Shown in pieces: positions 7,150 to 46,607 of a stretch of DNA of 64,000 nucleotides; positions within the stretch are counted from its first letter, which is position 1; each line of letters starts with the position of its first letter. A model generated the notes under the pieces. The model saw nothing but the letters and a program-made list of their open reading frames with translations, did not search any database and was not told where the DNA came from. This DNA comes from a virus: positions 1-64,000 of IMG/VR virus record IMGVR_UViG_3300006752_006525; one strand, given 5' to 3'. A program made the translations under genes and the position numbers.

Positions 7150-7546
7150 ATTTGTTTCAGCATTCATGGACTGTGCAGAAAGATTTGCACAATTAAGTAC
7201 AGCAACCAGAGCAAAGGTTGGAGCACTTATTGTAAAAGACAATAGAATTATTTCTATTGGTTACAATGGTATGCCATCAGGTTGGGATAATGAATGTGAA
7301 GAAGATGGAAAAACAAAACCAGAAGTTCTTCACGCAGAAACTAATGCTATTGCCAAAGTAGCACAAAGTTCAGAGAGCAGTAGAGGCTCAGAACTATTTT
7401 GCACACACTTACCTTGTATGGAATGTGCTAAACTAATTCATCAAAGTGGTATAGTCACTGTGTACTACCGAGAAGAATACCAAGCCGCCAAAGGCACTGG
7501 TAAACAATTTTTAATCGACAGTGGCATTGAGGTAATAAAGGTATGA
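7139..7546 (+). CDS. Deoxycytidylate deaminase-family protein
   Basis: 135 aa. The zinc site is intact: His65-Ala-Glu67 (HAETNAI) and Cys93-x2-Cys96 (PCMEC). The fold belongs to the ComE/dCMP deaminase group, which makes dUMP from dCMP to feed thymidylate synthesis. It is shorter than T4 Cd (193 aa) and more like the compact bacterial type. ATG at 7139 follows GAGG with good spacing. Its last bases overlap nfuA as ATGA. Confidence 0.85.
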   Translation: MKIKFVSAFMDCAERFAQLSTATRAKVGALIVKDNRIISIGYNGMPSGWDNECEEDGKTKPEVLHAETNAIAKVAQSSESSRGSELFCTHLPCMECAKLIHQSGIVTVYYREEYQAAKGTGKQFLIDSGIEVIKV

Positions 7547-8124
7547 ATATAACAGTAACAGAAACAGCAAGAGAATATCTCAGCAACTTACTCAGTAAAA
7601 ATAGTGAAGCAATTGGTGTGAGGTTGTTTGTAGACAAGCCTGGAACACCACGTGCAGAAACATTATTAACTTATGCCAAAGAATCAAGTATCGAAGAAAC
7701 AGATGTGAAAGAGTCATTTGGTCCACTTGATGTTTATGCTGTTGGTGAGAGTGTGAAATATCTTGATGATGCATTAATTAATTATGATGCTGACTTTGCT
7801 GGTGGAACACTGACTATCAAAGCACCTAACAGTAAGTTACCTAAGTTGGGACCTGATGCCACACTCAGTGACAAAGTAAATTATGTTCTATATAACGAAG
7901 TAAATGAAATGGTCAAGATGCATGGTGGCGAAGTTTCACTTGTTGAAATCACAGATGAGGATGTTGCTATCATCAGTTTCGGTGGTGGGTGTCAAGGATG
8001 TAGTGCAGTTGATGCAACACTTAAACATGTTGTGGAAGACACTATTATGAAGGCAGTGCCCGAAGTCAAAGGCGTTAAAGATATTACTGATCATACAGAT
8101 ACCAGTAACGCCTATTACACTTAA
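7543..8124 (+). CDS. nfuA: NfuA-type Fe-S scaffold/carrier
   Basis: 193 aa, almost the length of E. coli NfuA (191). Residues 1-~95 are a degenerate A-type domain without its cysteines, as in NfuA. Residues ~105-185 are a NifU C-terminal domain with GGGCQGCSA, Cys150 and Cys153, matching E. coli Cys149/Cys152. NfuA dimers bind one [4Fe-4S] through these CxxC pairs and deliver it to targets under oxidative stress or iron limitation. It is coupled to the deaminase gene and two genes after the Bfd-like gene. With the SufE-like and A-type proteins at 15.4-16.9 kb it completes a transfer chain. Confidence 0.92.
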   Translation: MNITVTETAREYLSNLLSKNSEAIGVRLFVDKPGTPRAETLLTYAKESSIEETDVKESFGPLDVYAVGESVKYLDDALINYDADFAGGTLTIKAPNSKLPKLGPDATLSDKVNYVLYNEVNEMVKMHGGEVSLVEITDEDVAIISFGGGCQGCSAVDATLKHVVEDTIMKAVPEVKGVKDITDHTDTSNAYYT

Positions 8125-16520: not shown

Positions 16521-16886
16521 ATGGAGATTAAAACATTTGATCCTAACCAGGATCTAGTAACCCTAACAGAAAGTGCCCAACAACACTTTCTTGCTCAAAC
16601 AGAAGGTGCTGATGCTATTGGCATTAAGTTAAGTTTGACTGGCGGAGGTTGTGCAGGTTTTATGTACGACTGGAAATTGATCAGCGATATATCAGACATC
16701 AACTTAACAGACTACAGCAAAGAATACAACGGTTGGACATTTTATTTAGACACGTTAAGTAAACAGTATCTAGCAGGCAGTACCATAGAATTGGTCACAG
16801 GCATTGCTGGACAACACATAGAAATCAAAGCACCATTAGCAGACAGTGCATGTGGTTGCGGGGAATCAGTAACATTTAGCATATGA
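16521..16886 (+). CDS. A-type Fe-S carrier (IscA/SufA/ErpA family)
   Basis: 121 aa. It carries the three-cysteine ligand set: Cys44 in TGGGCAGF and Cys111-Gly-Cys113 in CGCG near the C-terminus, as in IscA/SufA/ErpA. These proteins carry [2Fe-2S] or [4Fe-4S] clusters from scaffold to apoenzyme. The acidic insertion between strands (ISDISDINLTDYSKEYNG) is slightly longer than usual. ATG at 16521 is preceded by GTTAAATAGTAGT, similar to the upstream of the 47211 minus-strand gene and perhaps a weak late promoter. Its stop overlaps the next gene (ATGA). Confidence 0.9.
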   Translation: MEIKTFDPNQDLVTLTESAQQHFLAQTEGADAIGIKLSLTGGGCAGFMYDWKLISDISDINLTDYSKEYNGWTFYLDTLSKQYLAGSTIELVTGIAGQHIEIKAPLADSACGCGESVTFSI

Positions 16887-27654: not shown

Positions 27655-28263
27655 ATGAAAGTATTTCATATCTTTGCAGTGGCACTATTGGGTTTTTCTT
27701 TCAGTGCAAATGCAGTTGAATTAGGTGGTAAAGTTGGAGTTGCGTCTGACAATTATTTCAGAGGTATAAACATGAGTGACGGTTTTGGATACTCTGCAGG
27801 TGGTTATTTAGATCACGACAGCGGTATTTGGGCAGGTGCTAAGTTTATGTCTATGGATGACAGTGAGTACATGCATAGTTATGGTATTGGATACGGCCTT
27901 GAATTAGGTGGCGTTGATATAAACGTTATGTATCAAGATCACAACTTTAGCATGGACGGTTCAGAAGGCTGGGAAGAAGTAGGCGTTAAAGCAGACTTTG
28001 ACTGGTTCGCAGTTCGTTACCATGTAGGCCTCGATGATGCAAGTGATTACTGGGAAGTAAGCTCTAGTGCATTAAAGTACCTAGACGTAGCATACGGTGA
28101 TTGGGACGATGCTGGTTCATTCTGGAAATTATCAAAAGGTTTCGACCTACTTGGTGGTGAACTAGAAATGGGCTACATTGACCATGACAGTAATGATGAA
28201 GATTTTGCAGATAAAATACAAGATCTTGACAACTTCTACGTTGGTTACAGTTACAGGTTCTAA
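27655..28263 (+). CDS. Outer-membrane beta-barrel protein, Gcw_chp-like
   Basis: 202 aa. Signal peptide with ANA cleavage after residue 20. The mature start (ELGGKVGVASDNYFRGINMSDG, shown in parts: VGVASDNYFRG, then GGYLDHDSGIWAGA) resembles the Gcw_chp/TIGR02001 porin-like family. Alternating hydrophobic strands and the terminal aromatic YSYRF fit Bam-dependent insertion. A phage-encoded outer-membrane protein could change permeability or receptors of the infected cell, or be carried on virions. It is flanked by a hairpin upstream and a strong terminator downstream. Confidence 0.75.
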   Translation: MKVFHIFAVALLGFSFSANAVELGGKVGVASDNYFRGINMSDGFGYSAGGYLDHDSGIWAGAKFMSMDDSEYMHSYGIGYGLELGGVDINVMYQDHNFSMDGSEGWEEVGVKADFDWFAVRYHVGLDDASDYWEVSSSALKYLDVAYGDWDDAGSFWKLSKGFDLLGGELEMGYIDHDSNDEDFADKIQDLDNFYVGYSYRF

Positions 28264-45986: not shown

Positions 45987-46136
45987 TTAAGGATAGAAAG
46001 GATTATCTGTGATATACTTAGGCCACTCTGTTCTTTTCTCCACAGTGGGGAAACTCAAAGTTGACACTCTTTTTACTTTCTTAAGTTGTTTTTGTACAGC
46101 ACGTCGAACGAGTACTGTCTCTTGATACTTAGTCAT
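45987..46136 (-). CDS. Basic 49-aa peptide controlled by tandem glutamine riboswitches
   Basis: Start ATGACTAAG behind TAGGAG; another ATG four bases earlier is out of frame and stops at once. The protein is strongly basic in its first half (LVRRAVQKQLKKVKR) and ends DNPFYP. It is the only gene between the riboswitch pair and the terminator. Glutamine riboswitches of the glnA/downstream-peptide class are known to precede short ORFs, including small basic inhibitors of glutamine synthetase in cyanobacteria. Whether this peptide has that function is unknown. Confidence 0.7.
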   Translation of the reverse strand: MTKYQETVLVRRAVQKQLKKVKRVSTLSFPTVEKRTEWPKYITDNPFYP

Positions 46137-46155
46137 GTCATTCTCCTATCGGAAA

Positions 46156-46206
46156 ATGCGTTCCTTCGGCTTCATTGCCTACTTCCGTCCTTTACAGGAT
46201 GAACGT
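46156..46206 (-). promoter_or_regulatory. Glutamine riboswitch (glnA type), promoter-distal copy
   Basis: Minus-strand RNA: ACGTTC, hairpin TCCT/AGGA, CGGAAGTA, hairpin GGC/GCC, then GAAGGAACGC. CGTTC pairs with GAACG to close the three-stem junction. The fixed sequences are those of the glnA glutamine-binding motif as I remember it. It lies ~20 bases before the 49-aa ORF. Confidence 0.85.
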
Positions 46207-46210
46207 AACA

Positions 46211-46262
46211 ATGCGTTCCTTCGTCACTATTGACTACTTCCGCCCAATGATTGGGTGAACGT
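46211..46262 (-). promoter_or_regulatory. Glutamine riboswitch (glnA type), promoter-proximal copy
   Basis: Same layout as the neighbouring copy but with different stems: CCCAA/TTGGG and GTCA/TGAC. The unpaired CGGAAGTA and GAAGGAACGC are identical. Stem changes with conserved core are the mark of a selected RNA structure. Confidence 0.85.
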
Positions 46263-46268
46263 ATAAAA

Positions 46269-46276
46269 TATTTATC
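46269..46276 (-). promoter_or_regulatory. Late promoter GATAAATA driving the riboswitch transcript
   Basis: The octamer ends seven bases before the first riboswitch stem, so the RNA begins almost exactly with the aptamer. It lies just beyond the stop of the ferredoxin gene. Confidence 0.72.
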
Positions 46277-46280
46277 ACTT

Positions 46281-46607
46281 TTAGGATTCTAATTGTACGA
46301 TTTTAATGGCTTCTTCTGTGCTATATGGACTTGATTCTGCCATTGGAGGCTTAGTTTCGTAGATGTTTTCATACTTTTCTACCATGTCAGCATTGATTTG
46401 TATGAATGGCTTTTCTGCTTCTGGCACATCAATCTCATCAAATATTGCATCAACAGGACATTCTGGTACACACAATCCACAATCAATACATTCATCTGGA
46501 TCTATGACCAACATATTTGGTCCTTCATAAAAACAATCAACAGGACATACTTGAACGCAATGTGTGTCCTTACAGCCGACACAAGCACTAGTTACTACAA
46601 ATGCCAT
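46281..46607 (-). CDS. fdxA: 7Fe-8S ferredoxin (FdxA/FdI type)
   Basis: 108 aa. Cysteines at 9, 12, 17, 21, 25, 40, 43, 46 and 50 match Azotobacter FdI shifted by one. Cys9/17/50 would bind a [3Fe-4S] cluster and Cys21/40/43/46 a [4Fe-4S] cluster. The ~50-residue C-terminal extension of the family is present, so it is full length. It is a low-potential electron carrier, which could supply the radical SAM proteins. It follows the oxygenase-like gene by one base. Confidence 0.93.

Follow-up and report, generated by a model that had tools for sequence, protein, structure and literature searches.

A segment of the viral record IMGVR_UViG_3300006752_006525 (IMG/VR; 97,319 bases), of which positions 1-64,000 form the window analyzed here, has the organization of a self-contained late transcription unit: a late promoter, two type-1 glutamine riboswitch aptamers, a hairpin masking the Shine-Dalgarno site, a peptide gene, and a terminator (Table 1). 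The initial annotation had described two adjacent minus-strand units with differing stems and had read them as a tandem glnA-type glutamine riboswitch. Both units are present as described, and both, when scored with Infernal, lie above the curated Rfam cutoff of 35 bits for RF01739 (the type-1 glutamine riboswitch, or glnA RNA); they are the only RF01739 matches in the whole 97-kb record. The other covariance model that had been proposed for checking, RF01704 (Downstream-peptide, type 2), found no match at its gathering cutoff in the window. As in type-1 glutamine riboswitches, both aptamers lie in the 5' leader and an expression platform precedes the start codon. Judged from its sequence, this RNA presumably binds L-glutamine, and if the switch holds, CGGAAGTA in the leader RNA (46263-46134) is predicted to show Mg-dependent modulation by glutamine.

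Table 1. Features of the riboswitch locus and the iron-sulfur genes of the window
Feature	Position	Strand	Remarks
T4-type late promoter octamer GATAAATA	46276-46269	minus	7 nt upstream of first CGTTC
Glutamine riboswitch aptamer 1	46263-46210	minus	RF01739, 54.5 bits, E 3e-9, full model
Glutamine riboswitch aptamer 2	46207-46155	minus	RF01739, 61.8 bits, E 3e-11, full model
Expression platform hairpin CAUUUUCC-GAUA-GGAGAAUG	46158-46139	minus	8 bp, hides Shine-Dalgarno site
Shine-Dalgarno site AGGAG	46147-46143	minus	Within 3' arm of platform hairpin
49-aa basic peptide MTKYQETVLVRRAVQKQLKKVKRVSTLSFPTVEKRTEWPKYITDNPFYP	46136-45987	minus	pI about 10.2, net charge +7
Terminator	45980-45954		12-pair stem plus T run, GGGCAGTTAAACTGCCC-TTTTT on minus-strand reading
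Ferredoxin, proteobacterial type	46281-46607	minus	Neighbor of riboswitch locus
NifU/IscA-like protein	7543-8124	plus	
IscA-like protein	16521-16886	plus	Read by eye

The late promoter claimed for the octamer ahead of the first unit is borne out by the distribution of GATAAATA, of which the window holds 10 copies where 3.6 are expected (0/100 shuffles reached 10); 7 of these 10 are wholly intergenic though the window is 93% coding. Several copies stand immediately upstream of tail-fiber or other late-type genes, as the TATAAATA-like octamers of T4-type late promoters do. The mRNA would start near the 5' end of aptamer 1. Nearly all phage loci of the peptide family described below have a [T/G/C]ATAAATA motif ahead of the first aptamer, 5-11 or 21-25 nt away. 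Downstream, the Shine-Dalgarno site, the basic 49-aa open reading frame (ORF), and the terminator of the initial annotation were each located, the last separating the peptide gene from a convergent tail-fiber gene. Many family members (L123, L131, L144, L158, and others), the window not among them, have a short hairpin, TGTAAC-GCAA-GTTACA, between the late promoter and aptamer 1, perhaps as a 5' mRNA stabilizer.

The hairpin that forms the putative expression platform had been overlooked. It folds at -9.7 kcal/mol (z -5.3), and its 5' arm overlaps the conserved 3' end (GCA) of the aptamer. Across 27 distinct leaders, picked to cover several peptide families and only partly controlled for relatedness, compensatory changes were seen in five of the six pairs, and 93.8% of cells are paired; none of 500 shuffles reached this pairing score, and slid versions of the hairpin pair at 32-60%. 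When arms were swapped among 110 distinct leaders, again with relatedness only partly controlled, mean pairing weakened from -6.1 to -4.7 kcal/mol (0/500). The presence, after the aptamer, of a covarying hairpin in which the Shine-Dalgarno site is buried appears to be new and points to translational control. The C at its base is invariant (27/27 leaders). Ligand binding is known to insert G23 opposite C60 at the base of P1 (PMC11477058), and C60 is expected, by a putative match of numbering, to be the invariant C after GAACG that also forms the base of the platform hairpin. This insertion (PMC11477058) and the activating precedents (PMC6316151) favor an ON switch as the likelier direction.

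The 49-aa ORF, which the initial annotation had taken to encode a phage peptide, can be regarded as a genuine gene because it has relatives at 44 other viral loci, found by a peptide-only search of 2.9 million viral contigs (the homologue search in other phages then suggested), and because dN/dS between the window peptide and its closest relative, L123, is about 0.11. Together with values of 0.18-0.24 among the SAR86 copies described below, this indicates purifying selection on the related peptides. A glutamine riboswitch lies upstream of every relative examined that has sufficient upstream DNA. All 33 family records scored with Infernal contain RF01739, 29 in two copies and 4 in one, and none of these records has a match other than those at the peptide. 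The peptides are 45-56 aa long with a charge of +5 to +9, small and basic like the glutamine synthetase inactivating factors; their ends (MTKYQ..RAVK and LPxYITDNPFYP) are conserved and their middle is variable. A helix is predicted for N-terminal residues 3-25 of the window peptide.

The peptide matched no Pfam, PHROG, NCBIfam, or PDB family, a fold search found nothing, and no named phage was found to encode it; it appears to found a new, unnamed family. By Pfam, it is not recognizable as an IF7/IF17 protein, and neither the window peptide nor 24 family members matched PF14105 (DUF4278/IF17 N-terminal domain) above the cutoff. DUF4278 is a domain of cyanobacterial proteins behind the type-1 glutamine riboswitch (PMC6316151). 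Five members have YRG in their middle (YRGVRY in L131, L132, and L183; YRGI in L069 and L113), and YRGVRY, although it is the DUF4278 signature, is only a hint here, given that the PF14105 profile does not match. Loci L123 and L175 have identical tandem leaders and very different peptides, which suggests that leader and ORF are swapped as separate modules.

Outside viruses, homologues of this cassette were found only in SAR86 among the SAR86, Pelagibacterales, and Pseudomonadota genomes sampled. SAR86 bacteria, which are gammaproteobacteria, are among the most abundant heterotrophs of the surface ocean. RF01739 is present in 95 of 203 genomes from the order of SAR86 isolate MED-G166, in 2 of 197 Pelagibacterales genomes, and in 0 of 399 evenly drawn Pseudomonadota, with the reservations that few candidates were scored in large genomes, so that zero is not absolute, and that genome completeness is not stated. 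Five of the 203 genomes (L339-L343) encode a family peptide, about 50% identical to the phage peptide, directly behind tandem RF01739, one of the five copies being cut off by a contig end. These copies came from a profile search; a pattern search of the genome contigs, which confirmed none, had missed them because the pattern required YI where SAR86 has YV. The loci have conserved, clearly chromosomal settings next to a quinone-reductase gene, and one is near an ilvBHC-like cluster. Like the phage locus, they have the aptamer pair, the Shine-Dalgarno hairpin, and a peptide, here of 46 aa, with the ends MTKYE..RAVKK...LPAYVTDNPFYP; unlike it, they have a shorter peptide middle and no late promoter. 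The late box [T/G/C]ATAAATA is absent upstream of the SAR86 leaders, where a -10-like TAATAT or TAACAT was read by eye instead. At L339 the leader, 133 nt long, shares 96.2% identity with that of phage locus L118 and 72.8% with that of the window. Either phages acquired the cassette and switched its promoter, or transfer ran the opposite way; the virus has probably borrowed, or shares, a part of host nitrogen control and placed it under a late viral promoter.

The same riboswitch also precedes other SAR86 genes, whose names were read by eye from translations: GSII, GSI, GltB (glutamate synthase, GOGAT), a porin-like gene, and DUF4278 peptides. The GSII or GSI genes stand behind a riboswitch that is often tandem (L292, L295-L300, L303-L305, L309, L313-L315, and L319-L320). 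Their platform is different, with a conserved GTTAAAC..GAGTTTAAC hairpin and a start codon about 80 nt off, and SAR86 glnA may therefore respond with the opposite sign to the peptide gene. GlnE, the enzyme that adenylylates glutamine synthetase, was detected by PF03710 in none of the 203 SAR86-order genomes and in all of the positive controls (E. coli, Caulobacter, and Corynebacterium). Cyanobacteria also lack GlnE and have small inactivating factors in its place (PMC6316151).

By its polymerase and late octamer, the phage classes as T4-like. The cyanobacterial setting of the initial annotation did not survive: the closest cellular copies of riboswitch and peptide are in SAR86, the neighboring ferredoxin is of proteobacterial type, and the photosystem gene Photo_RC (PF00124) is in 0 of 33 family records, so a cyanophage origin was rejected. 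Whole-record similarity was also tried as a guide to the host and returned no close phage, and the DNA polymerase is only about 42% identical to those of jumbo phages of alphaproteobacteria and enterobacteria. The shared cassette makes SAR86 the candidate host. In the ferredoxin tree, the phage sequence sits on a long branch and is not placed with SAR86. The phage has several iron-sulfur genes (ferredoxin, NifU/IscA-like, and, by eye, IscA-like). A TorF-like reading of the protein at 27655-28263 was dropped, since its match to the SAR86 riboswitch-controlled porin-like gene is at 26% (E 4e-5) and it matches no family.

The nearest known system is cyanobacterial. Glutamine riboswitches there act as activators of expression, and the glutamine synthetase inhibitor IF17 is under the control of one of them (PMC6316151); the type-1 riboswitch controls gifB/IF17 and DUF4278 proteins (PMC6316151; Klahn et al. 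2018 as cited there). The present locus resembles the gifB/IF17 system in its RF01739 aptamer family, in the small basic protein downstream, and in having likely hosts without GlnE. It differs in that its peptide is not DUF4278/IF by Pfam, its promoter is a phage late promoter, and its homologues are gammaproteobacterial. Weinberg et al. (2010, PMC2864571) described tandem glnA RNAs and short downstream ORFs in sequences of cyanobacterial and marine origin, the marine copies not being assigned, in the parts of that report consulted, to SAR86 or to the present peptide; from the Downstream-peptide RNA of the same authors (RF01704), the present locus is set apart by its score below the cutoff.

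The interpretation builds on what is established at the level of sequence: how the unit is laid out, with its tandem aptamers and covarying hairpin; that its coding sequence is conserved; and that phages and SAR86 share the cassette but differ in its promoter. The reading that we prefer, with a probability of roughly 0.55, is that the locus is the phage form of a SAR86 nitrogen-status cassette, encoding a late, glutamine-ON peptide that modulates host nitrogen assimilation. The leader would be a late transcript. Its Shine-Dalgarno hairpin would stay closed as long as glutamine is scarce; once glutamine is plentiful, both aptamers would close their P1 stems, and the C just 3' of P1 would be drawn into the aptamer, opening the base of the hairpin and allowing the peptide to be translated. 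The peptide would then bind a host protein of nitrogen assimilation, with glutamine synthetase the likeliest target, as the cyanobacterial inactivating factors do. This last step is an analogy, since the peptide matches none of the families searched; the host homologue, the lack of GlnE in SAR86, and the DUF4278-like YRGVRY in some members strengthen the idea. Weighing against the preferred reading are the modest identity of the window leader to the SAR86 one (72-73%), a ferredoxin that does not group with SAR86 in the tree, and the small share of SAR86 genomes (5 of 203) that encode the peptide. A more ambitious version, which we advance tentatively and at somewhat under even odds, is that SAR86 glutamine synthetase is ruled by riboswitches and small proteins, a gammaproteobacterial counterpart of the inactivating factors, and that phages, carrying the cassette under a late promoter, make an inhibitor gated by glutamine with which nitrogen assimilation in the host is reset while virions are produced.

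The switch could also work as described and the peptide act elsewhere, on phage or host gene expression (the ribosome, RNA polymerase, or lysis timing), with glutamine serving only as a sign of cell state. The peptide would be late and phage controlled, glutamine riboswitches of other phages precede unrelated short basic peptides, and a function in controlling translation or lysis was suggested in the study of phage Melnitz (PMC9004378), all of which would suit such a role. We nevertheless consider it less likely, as the homologue is on SAR86 chromosomes, where this riboswitch otherwise stands before nitrogen genes, and the DUF4278-like motif occurs in some family members.

Less credible to us is an OFF switch, in which glutamine-bound P1 would stack on the Shine-Dalgarno hairpin and stabilize its closure, so that the peptide would appear only under glutamine shortage, for instance to release nitrogen or increase nitrogen uptake. 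The hairpin starts directly after the 3' strand of P1, which makes coaxial stacking possible, but the cyanobacterial type-1 and type-2 glutamine riboswitches that have been tested activate expression on binding (PMC6316151), and the invariant hairpin-base C sits where the linchpin C of the aptamer is expected. A decayed or non-switching relic, traveling with a selfish small gene, seems a very improbable reading of this RNA: the exchange of leaders between loci seen in L123 and L175 would fit it, but every member has full-length, high-scoring aptamers, the tandem layout is kept, the platform shows compensatory changes, and the peptide is under purifying selection.

Glutamine riboswitches carried by phages or arranged in tandem are of known kinds, as are small proteins and inhibitors under riboswitch control. 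Apparently undescribed so far are the cassette common to SAR86 and phages, the difference in promoter between the two, and the peptide family, and our literature search found no paper naming a glutamine riboswitch together with SAR86. In 2018, a review regarded glutamine riboswitches as restricted to cyanobacteria (PMC6316151), in contrast to the RF01739 found here, which about half of the SAR86-order genomes sampled contain, which stands before GS/GOGAT genes, and which phages share along with a tiny protein. Should the peptide inhibit glutamine synthetase, the phage would, through a shared RNA, link nitrogen control in the host to a signal from a host metabolite. Peptides of 45-56 aa are easily synthesized and tested.

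RF01739-type RNAs are likewise found in other T4-like marine phages, namely, Melnitz, Mosig, and cyanophage S-CREM1 (PMC9004378, PMC9964418), where they are followed by an unannotated 32-aa ORF, a 51-aa ORF, and a YRG peptide, respectively, none of which belongs to the present family. The Melnitz riboswitch was published as controlling tmRNA (PMC9004378). In that genome (L355, MZ577097; locus 919-1080), the riboswitch directly precedes the 32-aa ORF MTLYQQWCYLKAQKEYRRRQKILMYFRIRLKG and has the same type of Shine-Dalgarno hairpin, and this ORF is more likely the target than tmRNA. Of 114 readable viral loci with a glutamine riboswitch, 108 were found by a crude script to be followed by an ORF of at most 100 codons, which suggests that phage glutamine riboswitches elsewhere, published ones included, mainly serve overlooked short ORFs. 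Cultured SAR11 phages with GNGTSGY-type riboswitch-peptide relatives, distant kin of the peptide at L347 and L348, had no RF01739. Phages would seem to tend to carry riboswitch-peptide pairs resembling pairs in their likely hosts. On the two Pelagibacterales (SAR11-order) chromosomes L347 and L348, RF01739 precedes a 70-aa GNGTSGYVVKNG peptide with 65% identity to one encoded by a phage.
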